From NCBI GenBank assembly GCA_021292105.1, contig CM037861.1, positions 45,446,310-45,510,309 on the forward strand: a stretch of 64,000 bases of DNA, written 5' to 3'. The translations under genes and the position numbers were made by a program. Positions 7,524 through 51,119 of this stretch are shown here, in pieces. How positions within the stretch are numbered: the first letter of the stretch is position 1; every line of letters begins with the position of its first letter. This stretch comes from Anadara kagoshimensis. Lineage: Eukaryota > Mollusca > Bivalvia > Arcoida > Arcidae. Under the pieces are notes generated by a model. The model was not told the DNA's origin and ran no database searches. It saw nothing but the letters and a program-made list of their open reading frames with translations.

Positions 7524-7649
7524 GCATTGTTTTCTGTGTCTCTTAGATTTCAACACAGATTTTAACAAAACCTTATACCAGCATACAAGGGTGTGTCGTG
7601 AATGATGTTTAGTTATGTAGACTTTATGTTTATTATCTATCTGTTTAAG

Positions 7650-8344
7650 GTTCCAAGCGAAATAACAGATAAACAGTGGATAAGATTGCTCCAAGTTGAA
7701 ACAAAGACAGGATTTGAGAAAAGATTGAAAATGCTTCATAGGCTCGAATTTCATAAGAAACACAAAAAAGAAACAGCAGAAGCTAGAAAAGCACAGTTTG
7801 AATCGAGAAAAGAAGAAGTAGAGGAGAAAAGGGATTTTTTAAGACGTACTTTACGTAGACTGTCTCTCAAACATACTAATTATGTGCCTCGTCTTTTGAC
7901 AGCCATGCAATTTGGGCATCCATTAATTATAGATGTAGGCTATGATGAACACATGAGATGCTATGAAACAAAACTTACCAGTAGACAACTTATAGATGCC
8001 TATAGTTTGAATAAGATATACTGTAATCCGTTTCATTTGATGTTTTGTAACACCAACGGGGGCAGAAGGATAATGAGTGACGTATACAATGAATTGGAAA
8101 TCCCTGATAGTACAGATTTAATTGCTACTGTAACAGAGAAGAGTTACCTTGATTTAGTCCCAAGAGAAAAACTAGTATATCTAACACCAGATTCCAACAC
8201 TGTCTTGAGAAGGTTTAATCCTTCTGATGTTTACATTATTGGTGCCTTTGTAGATACATATGATGTTGGTCAGAAGATATCAATAAAAAAGGCACACTCT
8301 GATGGAATTCGCCATGCAAGAATAGCAGTTGATAGATATGTAAC
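7650..8344 (+). CDS. TRMT10C: TRMT10C-like tRNA m1R9 methyltransferase, exon 2 (SPOUT domain)
   Basis: Main domain exon, residues 98-328 plus two bases of codon 329. Acceptor TTTAAG is at 7644-7649 and donor GTGAGT at 8345. Residues 98-115 (VPSEITDKQW) match the linker seen in metazoan MRPP1. Residues 118-165 are a Lys/Glu-rich helix or coiled coil typical of TRM10 proteins. The SPOUT methyltransferase core follows: AMQFGHPLIIDVGYDEHM (182-199), NPFHLMFCN (223-231), TEKSYLDLVPREKLVYLTPDS (259-279) and DVYIIGAFVD (290-299), all family landmarks. Known role: SAM-dependent methylation of purine 9 in mitochondrial tRNAs as part of the RNase P subcomplex. The cytosolic TRMT10A/B paralogues are less likely because of the long targeting-type N-terminus and the QFGHPL motif. 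No frame breaks are visible. Confidence 0.93.
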
Positions 8345-8350
8345 GTGAGT

Positions 8351-25622: not shown

Positions 25623-26350
25623 CGCTGTTTTACTATTTATTCACTATTTAGTGATATCCATAAATCATTTATGGATATCAATAATTCGATTTATTGATAT
25701 CAATAATTCGATTTATTGATATCCATTAATATTTAATGATATCAATAAATATCTATTGATATCAATAATTCGATTTATTGATATCTATAATTCGATTTAT
25801 GGATATCAATAAATCGAATTAGTGATATCTATTATTCGATTCATGGATATCAATAATTCATTTGTATTTATGGATATCACTAATTCAATTTATTGATATC
25901 ACTAATTCATTTATTGATATCAATAAATCGAATTATGGATATCACTTATTCGATTTATTGATATCCAAAAATAAGGACGAATTAGTGATATCAATAAATC
26001 GAATTATGGATATTAATAAATCGGAAAACTTAAAATAATTTCTCACTCTCCGCAGCGCCATAATGGGGAGAATTCGTTATTTTCAAGAATATTGCAAATA
26101 TTTTTTGATATCCATAAATCGATTTATTGATATCACTAATTCGTCCTTATTTTTAGATATCCATAAATCGAATTTGTGATATCAATAAATGAATTATTGA
26201 TATCCATAAATCCAATTATTAATATAAATAAATAAGGATGAATTAGTGATATCAATAAATCGATTTATGGATATCAAAAAATCGAATTAAGGATATCCAA
26301 AAATCGAATTATTGATATCACTAAATAGTGAATAAATAGTAAAACGGCGC
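25623..26350. mobile_element. foldback element built of ~20-bp GATATC units
   Basis: The ends are perfect inverted repeats, TTTTACTATTTATTCACTAT-TTAGTGATATC on the left and its complement on the right. Between them are dozens of roughly 20-bp units of the form GATATCAATAAATCGAATTA in both orientations, with a unique ~60-bp centre (TCTCACTCTCCGCAGCGCCA) near 26040. AGTCCAA occurs just outside both ends (25610; 26356), a possible target duplication. Long inverted arms of short direct repeats are the foldback (FB) layout. It has no ORF. Confidence 0.85.
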
Positions 26351-26692: not shown

Positions 26693-27852
26693 TACGAGGG
26701 GAAGTCAGAAAGTTCATACGCATAGAACAGCGTATTCAGCCAAGCGTAACTCACATTTTCTTTACTTATTTAGACAACACAACATTCCGCCATTTTAAAC
26801 ATATCAAGTTTATTTGTCACAACATATTTGTGTAATTCTCAAAATGGTCAGCATTAAAACGTGGGCGCACCTCACTGAAAGATGATCCACGGTCAGGTCG
26901 GCCAGCTGATGTCATCACAAAGGAAATTGTCACGTCTGTGGAGACCCTCATCATGACTGATCGTCGAATTAGGATTGATCGACATAGCAAGGGAGTGTGA
27001 CATTTCACATGGAAGTGTATGTACACGGTTATCCACGAGCATCTTGGGATGTCAAAAGTATCCGCAAGATGGGTCCCCAATAACCTTAATGTGCAGGATC
27101 GCTTTCAAAGACTCCAGTCAAGTCTGGAGCTTCTTGGCATTTATAATGATAACCCGGAGGGCTTTTATTTACGTTTAGTAACTGATGATGACACATGGAT
27201 TCATCATTGGGACCCAGAAACCAAAAAAGAGTCAATGCAATGGAAGCACCCTGGCTCACCCCCACCAGAGAAATTCAAAACCCAACCATCAGGTGGCAAA
27301 GTCATGGCCACTGTGTTTTGGGATTCTAAGGGTGTTCTGTTAATCAATTATAAACCTGTTGGAATCTCTATCACTGGAGCTTGCTATGCTGATCTAATAA
27401 AGCAGCTGAAAGCTGCTATTAAATTAAAAAGGAGGGAAAAGTTGAGCTGAGGGGTATTGCTTCTTCACGACAATGATCCTGTGCACAAGTCAAGGATTAC
27501 ACAAGCATTAATTCGTGAATGCAAGTTTGAACAACTTAATTATCTACCCTACAGTCCCGATTTGGCACCCAGTGATTATTTCCTATTTAGAAATTTGAAA
27601 TCCCATTTAAGTGGAATCAGATTTCCTGATGATGATGAACTTGAGGCTGCCACAGAGGCATAGTTTAAGGACCAAACCGAAGACTTCTATTTCAAAGGTA
27701 TAGACAGTCTGAAAGAAAAGTGGGCTAAGTGCATTGGGGTAAATGGGGACTATATATATTGAAATACATGTATAATAAAATAAATTATAAAATGCGTGGT
27801 TTGTTGCGGCAATATATACCCGTTCTGTGAACTTTTTTGACCTCCACTCGTA
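26693..27852 (+). mobile_element. mariner-family transposon, defective
   Basis: About 1.16 kb bounded by TA dinucleotides and ~28-bp imperfect inverted ends: TACGAGGGGAAGTCAGAAAG-TTCA at 26693 and TGAACTTTTTTGACC-TCCACTCGTA ending at 27852. It contains a broken DD34D-type transposase. Confidence 0.9.
26840..27762 (+). pseudogene. mariner transposase pseudogene
   Basis: Homology starts mid-protein (ALKRGRTSLKDDPRSGRP, about 26850-26905), so most of the N-terminal paired-type helix-turn-helix is missing. At least one frameshift occurs near 26970-27015, since IDIARECDISHGSV and VYTVIHEHLGMSKV are in different frames. The catalytic core is then readable: DDDTWIHHWDPETK (first Asp), LLLHDNDPVHKS (second Asp) and YSPDLAPSDYFLF (third Asp), matching the mariner DD34D pattern. 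A TGA follows REKLS (about 27448) and a TAG follows EAATEA (27661). Cut-and-paste at TA would have been its role; this copy cannot make transposase. Confidence 0.9.
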
Positions 27853-33505: not shown

Positions 33506-33639
33506 TTATGGACTTTTTAGTGGTTGTATATGGTGTGATATTGACCCGAAAAATAAATATTGACCGAGGCTGGCGCCTCGGTCAATATTTATTTTTCGGG
33601 TCAATATCACACCATATACAACCACTAAAAAGTCCATAA
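33506..33639. repeat. 134-bp near-perfect palindrome at one end of the recombinase element
   Basis: The left arm (TTATGGACTTTTTAGTGGTT…TGACCGAGGC) and right arm (GCCTCGGTCAATATTT…AACCACTAAAAAGTCCATAA) are complementary over about 65 bp with a 4-base loop (TGGC). It could form a cruciform, or a long RNA hairpin if transcribed. Weaker complementarity (TATATTATA/TATTATATA) extends outside. The first half and stump of the second half recur at 46031-46105. Confidence 0.95.
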
Positions 33640-33831
33640 CTGTTTTATTATATAATTTCATCCCTGTGACACTTAGGTTGACAATGTTATCTATGCTTTA
33701 ATAATAATGATGTATGAATTTCTTCATTTTTATGTATTTAATAATCTTTAAACTTTTAAATACTAAAACAGAATTCTTAACAGAACAAATTGACAATTTT
33801 GGTAATTCTTAACAGAACAACAGAAATGTAA

Positions 33832-34547
33832 TTACTTTTGGTATATGTTGTAGTTTATAACTACATTCTGGGCATTAATTGTGGGCAATACGGGCTGAAA
33901 ACTTGACACTGCATTGAACGTTACAGTTTTTTGCTCGGCAACAGTCTGTTGACATAGTTCTTCCATAGGTAAATCGGACAACATTTTGTCAAATTCGCCA
34001 TCATCAAATTCTGATATTAAATTTTCCATTTGAGAATTTGACAAAGGTGACAAAACACACTCGCCAAACCGAAAAGGGGAATTTTTTGGTGTTGAAGGTT
34101 TCACAGCAGTTGAGTTATTAACATTTTCAGCACCAGGAATATTAAGTTTAACTTTAGCTGTACTGGTAATTCCAGTTCCATTACTAATAGTTTCAGACAT
34201 GTGTCTCTTAGTTGCAGCGTCTGTATAACCAGTATAGGTCTTTAAACTACTTTCTGCCTTATGACCTGTCACAGTCATAATGTGTCGAGAGGGGATTTTA
34301 GCGGCATCTAATAAATGAACGGACGTTGCTCTCAAACTGTGGTTCGTATACTTTTGTGAAAGTCTGAATTCTGTACTTAAGTCTGACATGATCTTTCCAA
34401 GTTTGTTGTGGCCCATTGGGACTCTGTCGAAATATAAACCTTCTTCATTTGGGTGTTTACGGGCTTTTGGAAACAAAAATATGTATCCAGGTGGTAACAT
34501 TCTTAAATATCTTACAAATGTTTTTACAGGACATTTCTCATCTGCAC
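33832..34547 (-). CDS. tyrosine recombinase (DUF3504/Crypton-type), exon 2
   Basis: Residues 231-468. The acceptor CATTTTAG ends at 34548, and the joined frame reads EIP-GADEKCPVKTFVRYLRMLPPG without a break. Catalytic residues are present: HxxR as H300-S-L-R303, the third-box His326 in VTGHKAESSL, and the nucleophile Tyr335 (or Tyr338) in SLKTYTGY. After about residue 346 the tail is Ser/Thr/Asn-rich and low in structure (NNSTAVKPSTPKNSPF), ending QNVVINYNIYQK. All catalytic positions are intact and there are no stops or frameshifts, so the gene may be functional. With the 344-bp intron removed the protein is 468 residues, within the range of Crypton recombinases. Confidence 0.88.
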
Positions 34548-34594
34548 CTAAAATGAAAGAAAAATAATTTTAGTGGAAGTTAATGATTTTTGAG

Positions 34595-34606
34595 AGAGAA
34601 AGAGAG

Positions 34607-34645
<39 letters not shown>
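34595..34645. repeat. (GA)n microsatellite in recombinase intron
   Basis: About 50 bp of GAGAGA with occasional A insertions; in the transcript it reads as a CT-rich pyrimidine tract roughly 50-100 bases before the exon 2 acceptor. Confidence 0.9.
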
Positions 34646-34649
<4 letters not shown>

Positions 34650-34891
34650 AGGGATTTATATTGTCATTGCTGATAACGCTTTAAAACACAGTCGTATGCA
34701 TACATACTCAAGTTCAGCTCGGGAATGTGGAGGAAACCAGTGTAACCTGAGAAAATCACCGACCTTAGCTATGTGTGACTAGCATGGTGAACTGAAAAAC
34801 ATTCTCGCACAAGGAGCCATGCTTCTCTAAACATGGTTACATGCTTCTGTGACATGGTGTGTGTGATCAATTTGTTAACTAGCCTACATAC

Positions 34892-35582
34892 CAGGAATTT
34901 CATACATCCTCCCACTGGCTGTATTGTTGTCCTCTCTGTGATTCTTTGTGAGTTCATCCTTTGTAAGGTAAATAAATTTCAATCCATTTGCATCTGTTGT
35001 GCATGCAAAATCTGACACCTGTAGTTCCCTTGCGTTTTCCCTGCCACGTCTTCCGAAATACAATAAAATGTCAACAAATACTTTTTTCTGTAGCGATTCT
35101 GGCTTAAATACGTCAAAAGAAGCATACAATTTCATCAAATCTTGCTTCTCAATTGGTGGGTGATGTTCAACTGCCCCGAGACCTTGTCTTTTTAATTCTG
35201 TTGTCATGGCAGTAAATGCGGTCTTAGATTTTTTAAAGTTTTGTCCACTAATAATGTCAACATCTCCAAGATACCTATTTAACCCATGCCTTAGTGCAAT
35301 TAGGGACGATCTTTTATACAGTTCGCCCTTTTTAGTACGTGCTTCCATATAAAACTTTGATAAAACCGAATCCAGTTCCACTTCACCATAGGAAAGTATA
35401 TCCTGAGACATACCCTTTTCTCTTAAATATGCCCTGAAAACATTTACCGCCATGTCCGTCGCCTTCTTCGTATTCCTGGCATCTTTGTCATCTATAATTT
35501 TGTTAACGTTGTCGTCCGTTAAAGCTGCAAATCGTTTCGGACAACTGTCGTCTGATTCAGCCGGCGATATTACCGCAGCCAT
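34892..35582 (-). CDS. tyrosine recombinase (DUF3504/Crypton-type), exon 1
   Basis: Residues 1-230 plus one base. The start ATG at 35582-35580 gives MAAVISPAES. The N-terminal half (about 20-135) has the helical SAM-like core-binding look: LTDDNVNKIIDDKDARNTKK, a segment around YGEVELDSVLSKFY, and SLIALRHGLNRYL. Residues 140-230 begin the catalytic domain, with VFVDILLYFGRRGRENAREL supplying the first catalytic Arg (178-181). The family catalyses strand exchange through a phosphotyrosine intermediate; related domains occur in ZMYM and other Crypton-derived host proteins. Donor GTATGT begins at 34891, phase 1. Whether this is a mobile-element gene or domesticated is decided by context; the mobile relative at 46 kb favours mobile. 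Confidence 0.88.
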
Positions 35583-35584
35583 AT

Positions 35585-35755
35585 TGTTTACTGTTGCGGT
35601 GGTGAAATGGGATTTCCAGATTCTAAAAATAGATTTTGATATTCACCGGATTTTCCGTGGTATATGATGTGAGATCTAATGGTCACGTGTTACCGTTTTA
35701 GCCAATCGTAGAGATGGAATTTATTAATTATATAATAAAAATGAATATTCTAATG
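35585..35755 (-). promoter_or_regulatory. conserved upstream/terminal region of recombinase element
   Basis: Contains CACGTG (E-box) in GGTCACGTGTTACC and CCAAT in TTTTAGCCAATCG, both kept in the gene-less relative at 46 kb (TTCACGTGTTACC, TTTTAGCCAATCA). Conservation in a copy without the gene suggests a terminal or recombinase-recognition role as well as, or instead of, promoter function. Confidence 0.5.
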
Positions 35756-38489: not shown

Positions 38490-40235
38490 TACATACACTT
38501 ACGAATAGTAACAATAGGTCTGATACACATACCCTATAATAACAATTGGACAGATACACTTACCAATAGTAACAATAGGGTTGATACACATGTCCGATAG
38601 TAACAATAGGGCAGATACACTTACCAATAGTAACAATAGGGCTGATACACATACCCGACAGCAACAATAGGTTTGATACACTTACCCGATAATAATAGGA
38701 CAGATACACTTACCAATAGTAACAATAAGACAGATACACTTACCAATAGTAACAATAGGGTTGATACACATACCCGATAATAACAATAGGACAGATACAC
38801 TTACCCGATAATAACAATAAGGCAGATAAACTTACCCGATAGTTACATAGGGACAGATACACTTACCGATAGTAACAATAGGGCTGTTACACTTACCCCC
38901 TAATAACAATAGGACAGATTCACTTACCCTATAGTAACAATAGGACAAATACACTTACCCGATAGTAACAATAGGGCAGATACACTTACTTACCGATAGT
39001 AACAATAGGACAGATGCACTTACCGATAGTAACAATAGGGCAGATACACTTACTTACCCGATAGTAACAATAGGACAGATACACTTACTAACCCGATAGT
39101 AACAATAGGACAGATACACTTACTTACCCGATAGTAACAACAGGGCAGATACACTAACTAACCCGATAGTTACAATAGGACAAATATACTTACCCGATAG
39201 TAACAATAGGGCAGATACACTTACCCGATAGTAACAATAGGACAGATACACTTACCCGATAATAACAATAAGGCAGATAAACTTACCCGATAGTTACAAT
39301 AGGACAGATACACTTACCGATAGTAACAATAGGGTTGATACACATACCCGATAATAACAATAGGACAGATACACTTACCCGATAATAACAATAAGGCAGA
39401 TAAACTTACCCGATAGTTGCATAGGGACAGATACACTTACCGATAGTAACAATAGGGCTGATACACTTACCCCATAATAACAATAGGACAGATTCACTTA
39501 CCCTATAGTAACAATAGGACAGATACACTTACCCGATAATAACAATAAGGCAGATAAACTTACCCGATAGTTACATAGGGACAGATACACTTACCGATAG
39601 TATCAATAGGGCTGTTACACTTACCCCATAATAACAATAGGACAGATTCACTTACCCTATAGTAACAATAGGACAAATACACTTACCCGATAGTAACAAT
39701 AGGGCAGATACACTTACCCTATAGTAACAATAGGACAAATACACTTACCCGATAGTAACAATAGGGCAGATACACTTACTTACCAATAGTAACAATAGGA
39801 CAGATGCACTTACCGATAATAATAATAGGGCAGATACACTTACTTACCCGATAGTAACAATAGGACAGATACACTTACTAACCCGATAGTAACAATAGGA
39901 CAAATACACTTACTTACCCGATAGTAACAACAGGGCAGATACACTAACTAACCCGATAGTTACAATAGGACAAATACACTTACCCGATAGTAACAATAGG
40001 GCAGATACACTTACCCGATAGTAACAATAGGACAGATACACTTACCCGATAATAACAATAAGGCAGATAAACTTACCCGATAGTTACAATAGGACAGATA
40101 CACTTACCGATAGTAACAATAGGGCTGATACACTTACCCCATAATAACAATAGGACAGATTCACTTACCCGATAGTAACAATAGAACAAATACACTTACC
40201 CGATAATAACAATAGGGCAGATACGCTTACTCGAT
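38490..40235. repeat. 31-bp minisatellite, ~55 units
   Basis: Tandem units of CCGATAGTAACAATAGGACA-GATACACTTAC, with variants GGGCAG, ACAAAT, ACATAC and AATAAC. A segment around 39012 recurs about 790 bp on (39802), indicating a higher-order duplication. On the minus strand nearly every unit has GGTAAGTG, a 5'-splice-site consensus. It does not keep an open frame for any length. Confidence 0.95.
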
Positions 40236-40680
40236 GCCAATCATTCTTCGATTTGTGATCCGTAGCTGGTAATGAGTTGCCAAGGCAGTTTTGCGTTAAA
40301 ATATTCCGCTTGGCAACCGAGTTCCATCAGGGGCTTTTGTCAACAATATATTTCTTGTAAACATCAGTTAGCATGGTTAGTTGTTTATCTTTACAGGTGT
40401 AGGATCTCTGGATATGAAGTTATTTAGAGCCAGCTGTCTGGTAGAAGAACCCCGGTGTTACTGCCACAATCTCAATAGGACTTTTTATATTGTTATATTT
40501 GTAAACGTTATTGTTTTGTTTCTGTGTCACCCATGTGTGATGCTATATTGTTTTTTAAACTCCTATTTATACACCGACTATCTCACAATATTTTTGAATA
40601 CATTTGTCTTTTCTTGCATTTGCTACAAAAATCTGATTTTATACCTACAATATGCCAACTAATGTATTTATTAATAAAAT
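40236..40680 (+). other. possible small hydrophobic ORF after the minisatellite
   Basis: Codons 40381-40662 give a 93-residue Cys-rich hydrophobic reading (FYIVIFVNVIVLFLCHPCVM…). TTTACAGGTG at 40390 could be an acceptor that would remove the start. GTTGCCAAG at about 40279 and CTTGGCAAC at about 40308 form a small inverted repeat upstream. No family recognised; coding status unresolved. Confidence 0.25.
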
Positions 40681-46023: not shown

Positions 46024-46432
46024 TAACGTCTGCGTGGAACTATTTTAGTGGTTGTATATGGTGTGATATTCACCGAAAAATAAATATTGACCGAGGCGAT
46101 AGCCTCTGACTTTTTAAATCTGATTCTATGAAAAATTAAATGACATTCCGAATGAGACAAACATTTACAAACTAAATTGATGATGCCATAGCGTCAACGT
46201 TCTATGGAAAAAAAAACAGACATCCCGGATGAGACCCAATCACTTGCTCACACTTAATTGATGACGTACGCGAAAACATCAACAAAAATCGACGTACGCC
46301 GAATTTGATATACACCGGATTTTTTTTCAGAAATCCGTGATATATCATGTGAGATCCAATGTTCACGTGTTACCATTTTAGCCAATCATAAAGATAAAAT
46401 TTATTTAATATATAATAATGAATCATATCAGT
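46024..46432. mobile_element. gene-less relative of the recombinase element
   Basis: The left end TTTTAGTGGTTGTATATGGT-GTGATATT…ATATTGACCGAGGC equals the palindrome half of 33506-33639, followed by a short stump of the second arm (GATAGCCTC). The right end ATACACCGGATTTTTTTTCA…TATCATGTGAGATCCAATG-TTCACGTGTTACC…TTAGCCAATCATAAAGAT equals 35640-35740. The ~200-bp interior is unrelated to the recombinase gene and contains two diverged copies of GACATYCCGAATGAGAC. It is consistent with a non-autonomous element mobilised in trans. Confidence 0.8.
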
Positions 46433-47458: not shown

Positions 47459-48535
47459 AAACCACGCTATGAAAAAGCTCTTCATTTTACAACCTGTTGT
47501 GGTCCGTAACCCGAAATGCTATGAAGAAGCCAGGATTTTACAACCAGTGGTCCGTAACTAGACACTCTATGACAAGGCCTTCATTTAATAACATGTGGTC
47601 CGTAACCAGACACTCTATGAAGAACCTAGGATTTTACAGCCTGTGGTCCGTAACCAGACACGTTATAAAAAAACCTTCATTTTACAACCTTTAGTCCGTA
47701 ACCAGACCCTCTATGAAAAAAAAACTTCATTTTAAAACCTTTGGTCCGTAACCAGACACTCTATGAAAAAAAAACTTCATTTTAAAACCTGTGGTCCGTA
47801 ACCAGACACGTTATAAAAAAACCTTAATTTTACAACCTTTGGTCCATAACCAGACACTCTATGAAAAAAAAACTTCATTTTAAAACCTTTGGTCCGTAAC
47901 CAGACACTCTATGAAAAAAAACCTTTGGTCCGTAACCAGACACGCTATGAAAAAGCCTTGATTTGACCACCTTCTCTCCGTAACCAGACACGCTATGAAA
48001 AAGCTTTCATTTTACAACCTTTGGTCCGTAACCAGACACACTTTGAAATAGCCTACATTTTACAACCTGTGGTCCGTAACCAGACACACTTTGAATAAGC
48101 CTACATTTTACAACCTGAGGTCCGTAACCAGACACGTTATGGAAAAGCCTACATTTTACAACCTGTGGTCCGTAACCAGACACACTTTGAATAAGCCTAC
48201 ATTTTACAGCCTGTAGTCCATAACCAGACACTCTATGAAAAAAAACCTTCATTTTAAAACCTTTGGTCCGTAACCAGACACTCTATGAAAAAAACCTTTA
48301 GTCCGTAACCAGACAAGCTATGAAAAAGCCTTGATTTGACAACCTTCGCTCCGTAACCAGACACACTTTGAATAAGCCTACATTTTACAACCTGTGGTCC
48401 GTAACCAGACACGTTATGGAAAAGCCTTCATTATACAACCTGTGGTCCGTAACCAAATACGCTATGAAAAAGCTTTCATTTTACAACCCCTGGTCCGTAA
48501 CCATATACGCTATGAAAAAGCCTCAATTTTCAGAT
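47459..48535. repeat. ~48-bp minisatellite, about 22 units
   Basis: Units of TGGTCCGTAACCAGACACTC-TATGAAAAAGCCTTCATTTT-ACAACC, with length variants. Because many units are multiples of three, frames stay open on both strands: WSVTRHSMKKPSFYNL repeats on plus (47497-47694, 48368-48530) and VSGYGPQVVKCRLFQ repeats on minus (48007-48252). No start context, splice signal or family supports coding. Confidence 0.95.
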
Positions 48536-48539
48536 AACC

Positions 48540-49600
48540 ATGTCTATATTACATTTGAATATGCATTTTCTCTTAGCATACCTTGCTGTGTATCAATGCA
48601 ACTACACAATCAGGAGACAGTTGTTCAAACCTTTATTAGTTTAATCAGCCGATTAGTCAAAATTTGAGTTTTAAATAATGTCAAATATGTTGTGAAATTA
48701 CGATTGAAACTTTTAATAAAGAATTTCACAAATTTGAAGCAAATTGTTATGAAAATACCAATTTAATACCGATATGCTTATTTTAATCGTTACATATATT
48801 TCAAATTTGTGTAAATCATTAGCTTCGAACAACTGGCCAGAATGAACACTCAAACATCATTACAGTTTTTAGAGCAATTATTAGCAGTAGGTCGTATACT
48901 TTGTCTTACTTGATGAACATGTTAAATAAAATCAGGTTTGGTAAGATTTTGGTACTTATATAAGAAAACTGTATTGTTTTTGTTCCATCAAATTGTTCTG
49001 GTAAATTCATTTTCGTGTTTTAAAATTTGAGAAATTTCTAAAGATTTCGTCGGTTGGTTATCAACAAAATGGAAATAGAAAAGTTTAAATATGATCATGT
49101 TTTTCCCCCAATAACACCACGCGTATTAGGCACACACGCCCACTCATGTGCCATTATATAACATTTCTTGATTGTGACGCTACCTAGAATATAATATTCC
49201 CAATGTAAAGATGATTGCTTTGATGAGTGATGCTGTAAATAAAATGTATTATGTTTTCTTCTTCTTTTTTTTTTTTTTTGAAAAATAATTGCATATTTAA
49301 GTTACAACATGATATAAAACATTCCGGCATTTATTATCAAAATTTATTTATTATTATTGAATAATTTTATATCGTATAATTAACTGACATAGTCTCAAAT
49401 TAATTGTTAGTTCTGTTCCATTCATCCTTGATATAAAAAGGCGGATGTTATTACCACGTATTTTTATACCCATGTAACTTTATACATCGTTTGAATAGGA
49501 GGAAATAGTCCAATTATGAATTGAAACAGAATTTTAATGATATTTTTCAAAAAAGCTGCTGTCTAAATGATTGATGATTGATCTTTGATCGTGATGAACT

Positions 49601-49635
<35 letters not shown>

Positions 49636-50578
49636 GACAAAAATAAAATGGCGGATCTAAAACCGTTTTTACGTTTTTTATGAAAATAATCTATTATTTG
49701 TCACATATATGACAAATATCTATTAAATATACTTTAATTATCACTAAATTGATGTATTTATAGCCAATCATAAAGTTATAAAGCACATGTACATGTATAC
49801 TATAAAATACGTGTATAAAAAATATGTTGTAATAACACATTTGTTACTGACACGTACGGGGCAATAAGCACTTCGATAAAAAAGTCTAACATGGATATAA
49901 TAGAAAGAATAATTGGATAATGGAGAACTGGAATATAGAACTGTCGATTTCTTATTATCTATTTATGAACTTATGATTTCTAATATATTTTAACATCAGC
50001 AATCAATGGGTAAACACGGTAGATAAACATGAACTTGAATTGTTTTTACCATGAGTGACTTTTATATTAATATGTTAGTAACCAAACGCAGTTTTGCAAT
50101 TCAGTAAAATAAAATGAATTTTAATACTTTATCTATATTTTCGGCAAGAATAAAACCGATTTCATTAAACTGGTCAACCGAGGAAAATAAATTAGAAAAA
50201 AATAATCTAAAGTCCTTAAGTACTTCGAAATGATAATAAAAACTAACTACGATATCGGAAAGGACTAGTGTACTGATGTTGCGCCAGTGAAATTGTTCCA
50301 AAGGAGAATATTCACTTAAAATTTTGATCAAAAGTATATTTTCACTAGTTATTTTGTGACAGAGGATAGTATACACTAGTGATTGTATTTCAACGGATAG
50401 TTCTCAATAGTGATTTAGTGACAAATTGAATTAAAACCTCTTGATTAAACTTTTCATGTCGAAAACAAAATTAACTCACAATAGAATTAAATAATTCTTT
50501 ATTGGAAAAAATCCGGGAATTGAATTTTCTACAACCAATTTTTATCAAACTCTCGCACAAAAAACGTCAATTCAAAAA
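48540..50578. other. 5' flank of the PAN/kringle gene
   Basis: Very AT-rich, with T and A homopolymers at about 49267 and 49602-49631. No gene recognised. The last 100 bp before 50579 is the likely 5' UTR. Confidence 0.35.
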
Positions 50579-50914
50579 ATGCGTGATCTATTGAATAAGC
50601 GATCTATGTTCATTGTGTTTGCGATTACAATGGCGTTTTACTGGAATTCAAAGGTTTCAGCGGCGAATATGACATGCTTGGGGAATGAAATAGCAAAACA
50701 TGGAAAAACATTGCAATCCACAGCAATATATACTAAACAAATACTAGGATATCAACAATGTGCAAGAGAGTGTTATTTGTTGTCTGGTTGCTTATCATTT
50801 AATTATGATAGAATTACCTTGACATGTGAAATGCATAAAGATAACGAAAATAGCGTAGCGCTTAGTAATAGCAATGCGTATAATAGTTACACCGGGCGTA
50901 ATAACATACCACAG
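50579..50914 (+). CDS. PAN/apple-FOLN-kringle secreted protein, exon 1
   Basis: Residues 1-112. The start ATG is in the context AAAAAATGCG. Residues 8-28 (SMFIVFAITMAFYWNSKVSA) form a signal peptide, with cleavage probably after Ala28 or Ala29. Residues 33-108 fit a PAN/apple domain: Cys33, Cys61, Cys65, Cys71 and Cys83, with the family core QQCARECYLLSGCLSFNYD around residues 59-77. Such domains bind carbohydrate or protein partners outside the cell. Donor GTAAGC starts at 50915, phase 0, in agreement with the acceptor at 59880. In molluscs PAN-bearing secreted proteins are numerous and often lectin-like or mucus-related; the precise role here is unknown. Confidence 0.8.
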
Positions 50915-51119
50915 GTAAGCAAAAAAAATTATCAACAACGCCTGTACAGCATTTACTTTTAATTAATATTCTTGATTTTATTCATAATACTATTGTAAGT
51001 TTGATGTCTCTGCATCCGAAATTATCCTGGATCTATTTTGCGTTAAAAAATTCAATGTTTCTTTAAAAATTAGATTTTACACTCGACAGATGTAGCTACT
51101 GTATTTCCATAAATTGAGT

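Follow-up and report, generated by a model that had tools for sequence, protein, structure and literature searches.

A probable Crypton-type DNA transposon with a probable left end in a 134-bp palindrome, and a recombinase-less relative, in Anadara kagoshimensis

A 64,000-nucleotide stretch of the genome of Anadara kagoshimensis (assembly GCA_021292105.1, contig CM037861.1, positions 45,446,310 to 45,510,309 of the forward strand; hereafter the window, in which all positions are counted) appears to carry a DNA transposon of the Crypton type that spans about 33506-35746 (~2.24 kb) and whose tyrosine recombinase gene is spliced and intact, and also, beginning 10.3 kb further on, a non-autonomous relative. 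We give this reading a probability of roughly 0.7. That the sequence is an element with two ends is well supported, and its membership among the Cryptons is probable.

Results

The recombinase gene lies on the minus strand. Its ATG at 35582 opens exon 1 (35582-34892), which encodes a QRICH1-like region and the R178/R181 positions. This exon is followed by a GT..AG intron of 344 bp (34891-34548; GTATGT...TTTTAG) containing a (GA)n stretch, and by exon 2 (34547-33832, stop included), which encodes H300, R303, H326, Y335 and a C-terminal tail. The spliced product, whose splicing was deduced from the sequence and not from transcripts, is 468 amino acids long and has no internal stop. The named catalytic tyrosine-recombinase positions (R178/R181, H300-x-x-R303, H326 and Y335) are present by position, and the intact two-exon recombinase with these Arg, His and Tyr residues described in the initial annotation is thus upheld. 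An AATAAA for this gene starts at 33649 and is one of five AATAAA/ATTAAA signals in the stretch examined. On the other side, CACGTG, CCAAT and a TATA-like stretch lie within 35632-35746, and we take them to be perhaps the promoter of the gene.

The kinship of the 468-residue protein to Crypton/DUF3504 families that the initial annotation proposed to look for was recovered in the domains matched, with each match falling slightly short of its curated cut-off: Pfam returned QRICH1 (E 8.6e-6), DUF3504 (E 1.1e-5, profile positions 21-160 of 162) and Phage_integrase (E 2.3e-5), besides a weak unrelated match (E 0.13). Based on this domain content, the gene product is probably a tyrosine recombinase of the Crypton/DUF3504 kind. 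The protein had no match in NCBIfam. In the PDB sequence search the whole protein had none up to E 1, and the exon 2 frame had a single one at E 0.95; the AlphaFold model of exon 2 alone reached a pLDDT of 30.6. Among the GTDB contigs, 19 stretches yielded one confirmed locus, a bacterial integrase-like protein with 31% over 75 residues at the last catalytic block. Scans of IMG/VR with the protein of each exon gave four and five candidate stretches, with none confirmed; two exact DNA patterns found no match there, and a plasmid search found none at E 0.01. Inside the element, the only further open reading frames of at least 80 amino acids are two (34319-34567 and 35407-35667, + strand), and both overlap the recombinase gene. 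The inventory of reading frames holds no reverse transcriptase, unlike DIRS/Ngaro elements, these two overlapping frames lying outside the family scan.

A palindrome of 134 bp in total (33506-33639) begins 193 bp beyond the stop codon of the gene. It consists of a perfect left arm (33506-33570, +) on the 3' side of the gene, a 4-nt loop, TGGC (33571-33574), and a right arm (33575-33639, -) that is the left arm inverted. The hairpin of ~65-bp arms and a 4-base loop noted in the initial annotation is therefore accurate, both arms being 65 nt long and perfect; with mismatches permitted, they grow to 74 nt at 96% identity. When arms of 14 nt upwards and loops of at most 30 nt were admitted, the 64-kb window had seven perfect hairpins, the second-longest arm being 20 nt, and in five simulated 64-kb Markov-1 sequences the longest arm was 11-12 nt. 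The palindrome is far beyond chance. As folded single-stranded DNA, its region reaches -78.2 kcal/mol (z -25.4); shuffled versions average -12.6, and none of 200 was equally stable. Elsewhere in the window, at 25652-26004, perfect hairpins of 14-20 nt are clustered and built on GATATCAATAAATCGAAT.

The limits of the element were derived from a second, recombinase-less copy at about 46034-46425 (+), hereafter copy 2. It is composed of the left arm (to 46097), a mini-hairpin GAGGC-GATA-GCCTC, an unrelated middle and a right end (46301-46425). In the BLAST alignments, the left arm of copy 1 matches 46043-46097 in 54 of 56 aligned columns, and 35632-35738 matches 46301-46418 in 94 of 118 columns. 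Two-copy profiles lengthen this homology on the left to about 33508 in copy 1 and 46034-46035 in copy 2, and on the right to 35746 and about 46424, respectively, so that BLAST and profile together place the common right end at 35632-35746 in copy 1. Eight of the nine outermost arm columns differ between the copies, which leaves an uncertainty of ~9 bp in the left limit. The perfect symmetry of copy 1 ends within ~9 bp of the end of the copy 2 homology. The extent obtained in this manner (about 33506-35746) nearly equals the interval of 33506-35755 first proposed. The two elements lie 10.3 kb apart, or 12.5 kb from arm to arm, and are the only two copies seen within the 64-kb window.

Their flanks are different: between flanks of ~1 kb, the best match is 29 nt long at 83% (E 0.019), and a tandem or segmental duplication as the origin of copy 2 was set aside for this reason. 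Because copy 2 bears the arm and the opposite end in different flanks, the element most likely has its left end in the palindrome arm and its far end just upstream of the gene; a single element with two ends is a far more probable explanation than two separate repeats that happened to land together twice. Given copy 2, the idea that the palindrome is merely an unrelated neighbour of the gene was set aside, and the earlier view of the palindrome as part of the element stands for its arm. A tblastn search for a recombinase remnant in copy 2 gave nothing significant (best match 9 residues, E 1.1), and its middle (46098-46300) has no match to any part of copy 1. A simple loss of internal sequence from copy 1 therefore does not account for copy 2, which is probably a non-autonomous relative, a recombinase-less copy with both ends as expected of a dispersed Crypton. 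At the place of the palindrome it folds into a 5-bp stem only, the second arm being absent except for its inner 5 bp. The two hairpin loops differ (TGGC at 33571-33574, GATA at 46098-46101), and the five flanking bases on each side are identical. Since copy 2 has one arm and this 5-bp stem, the full palindrome, present in one of the two copies, may be particular to copy 1.

Two subterminal motifs of the arm, A (GTATATGRTGTGAKAT) and B (TGATATTSACCSG), recur without inversion in the right end of copy 1, at 35660-35675 (+) and 35637-35649 (+), respectively. Within the palindrome, motif A lies at 33526-33541 (+) and 33604-33619 (-), and motif B at 33536-33548 (+) and 33597-33609 (-). In copy 2, motif A occurs at 46054-46069 and, with two mismatches, at 46340-46355, and motif B occurs with one mismatch at 46064-46076 and 46306-46318. 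All five window matches to motif A (at most two mismatches) and all five to motif B (at most one mismatch) fall in the ends of the two copies, a rarity that is partly circular because the patterns were derived from these very sites; for a shorter piece, ATATTSACC, the share was 7 of 10.

A less circular comparison set arm against right end, with a background of 1009 overlapping tiles of 115 bp drawn from the window beyond both loci. The right end of copy 1 was equalled by two tiles against the copy 1 arm and by one against the copy 2 arm. The right end of copy 2 was unremarkable, with 376 and 49 tiles as good, respectively, and against the copy 1 arm it scored higher in the reversed orientation (32 versus 29). 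The mean across the four comparisons was matched by 6 of the 1009 tiles; an earlier version with a single alignment had given 6 of 735 tiles and 40 of 1000 shuffles. Motifs A and B are candidate recombinase-binding sites, apparently doubled in inverted orientation by the palindrome, and this proposal is drawn mainly from copy 1.

Two further candidate features were dropped. Stronger conservation of the arm, as a sign of function, was seen solely on BLAST-trimmed alignments (substitutions in 1 of 55 arm positions and 13 of 107 right-end positions, p 0.036) and vanished on untrimmed ones (9 of 64 and 13 of 112, p 0.64). An inverted repeat of 15 bp (33643-33657, +, and inverted at 35726-35740), a weak candidate for terminal inverted repeats, is composed of A/T only, and 1 of 55 random window pairs had one equal or longer. 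By eye only, an imperfect direct repeat of this A/T sequence lies directly outside the left arm. No clear terminal direct repeat of the fungal-Crypton type, 4-6 bp long, was found at the ends of the element.

The window also contains a frame of the tRNA (guanine-1)-methyltransferase family at 7602-8348 (E 2.3e-14), probably a host gene, a mariner-type transposase fragment at 27001-27450 (Pfam Transposase_1, E 3e-22) and a PAN-domain reading frame at 50495-50962 (E 3.1e-7). The first two of these are in keeping with animal DNA. Tandem arrays with spacings of 31 bp and 48 bp occupy 38502-40261 and 47500-48619. Arrays of a 145-bp tandem repeat lie at about 5.3-6.1, 9.6-13.9 and 20.0-21.4 kb and, inverted, at about 56.0-56.7 and 61.8-63.4 kb, and they resemble the satellite-carrying oyster Helentrons described in part of PMC7492417.

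Discussion

We infer that the element is mobile, and that its recombinase would bind motifs A and B near each terminus and join the two ends, thereby releasing a circle that would insert elsewhere without a target-site duplication. In the parts of PMC3212892 that deal with Crypton boundaries, these are described as hard to characterise, and excision as a circle is proposed by analogy with prokaryotic elements. The palindrome at the left end of copy 1 would then represent an extra, inverted set of motifs A and B.

Concerning its origin, copy 2 may have lost a second arm, or the ancestral form may have had only a short hairpin, with copy 1 gaining its arm by fold-back copying. We lean towards the latter, in which the palindrome would have arisen by such copying at the short terminal hairpin GAGGC-loop-GCCTC. 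PMC8268682 cites a stem-loop mechanism, with the nascent strand turning template, for tandem repeats derived from a mobile element; its application to the present palindrome would be by analogy.

Another explanation, which we consider possible but unlikely, is that the palindrome itself serves in recombination: the recombinase would use the hairpin or palindromic end as its site, in the way that telRL is used by telomere resolvases and folded attC by integron integrases. The perfect 65-nt symmetry and the inverted repetition of the motif set agree with this idea, and the centre can be read as inverted arms that flank a short spacer, which is how PMC3212892 outlines tyrosine-recombinase sites in general. 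However, copy 2 retains just the 5-bp stem, and no telomere resolvase appeared among the Pfam, NCBIfam and PDB matches of the protein, single-sequence searches of this kind being prone to miss remote kinship. We regard as doubtful a more specific version in which the enzyme would act on the terminal palindrome either folded from a single strand, as with attC, or in the form of a hairpin end, as with telRL, and the element would move by way of a single-stranded or hairpin-ended intermediate. We know of no linear hairpin-ended form among Cryptons. The telomere resolvase/telRL systems of phage N15 and the Ectocarpus endogenous virus (PMC13236599) are comparable in that an integrated element has its palindromic site next to an enzyme that breaks and rejoins DNA. 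Unlike the palindrome described here, the telRL of N15 is an inverted repeat of 56 bp whose two strands are cut 6 nt apart, and the present recombinase has no sequence match to such an enzyme.

We judge it improbable that the palindrome is a product of misassembly or came from an independent foldback element that inserted 3' of the gene. Some sequencing methods can yield artefactual palindromes, and the missing second arm of copy 2 would fit either origin. Nevertheless, copy 2 pairs the left arm with the other element end, and a fold-back read should presumably mirror more than 65 bp, whereas here the sequence continues into the gene. Least likely of all is that the gene has been domesticated by the host, as a member of the DUF3504 group (KIAA1958, ZMYM, QRICH1), and lies next to an unrelated hairpin or MITE: the DUF3504 and QRICH1 models do match, and such genes are described in the abstract of PMC3212892, but DUF3504 there lacks most of the catalytic residues, whereas the named residues are present here, and the upstream end of the gene recurs jointly with the palindrome arm at a place without the gene.

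Returning to the Crypton reading, we compared the element with known systems. As in the animal Cryptons (CryptonA and CryptonI) treated in excerpts of PMC3212892, the only recognised coding region is a DUF3504-like tyrosine recombinase, and a recombinase-less copy with both ends exists, such copies being known there from Rhodnius and medaka. According to this 2011 survey, Cryptons have no terminal inverted repeats; the fungal ones described first have terminal direct repeats of 4 or 6 bp, and for animal Cryptons no terminal repeats were found. The present element, by contrast, has a 134-bp palindrome as one end, and the ends of copy 1 have subterminal motifs in common. The separate Crypton-like subfamily and the replication structure that the initial annotation suggested are at this stage conjectures. 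The same excerpts report TATGG termini in the majority of CryptonS, the group of oomycetes and diatoms, and the outer palindrome edge here reads TTATGG. The resemblance may be a coincidence, as TATGG is only five bases long and has no match at the corresponding outer place of copy 2 or, on both strands, in either right end. The non-autonomous Helentrons (HINE) of oysters also have a short palindrome near one end, according to part of PMC7492417, but HINE move by rolling-circle replication, whereas the enzyme encoded here is a tyrosine recombinase.

Cryptons are not necessarily rare among bivalves: a table in the hard clam study PMC8905726 gives 9,809 and 13,654 Crypton copies in two columns. 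A 2014 survey that included two molluscs (PMC4157794), by contrast, reports a single Crypton, from a sea anemone, besides a suspected contaminant. Among the literature matches listed, which leave most subscription journals outside their coverage, none announced in its accessible text a Crypton with a palindromic end, and such ends may already be known to curators.

To conclude, our work describes in 64 kb an intact element with a recognisable end, its recombinase-less partner and motifs at both ends, which together provide concrete recombination substrates for testing. If the palindrome is used by the recombinase, it would form a link between the eukaryotic Cryptons and the hairpin-using recombinases.
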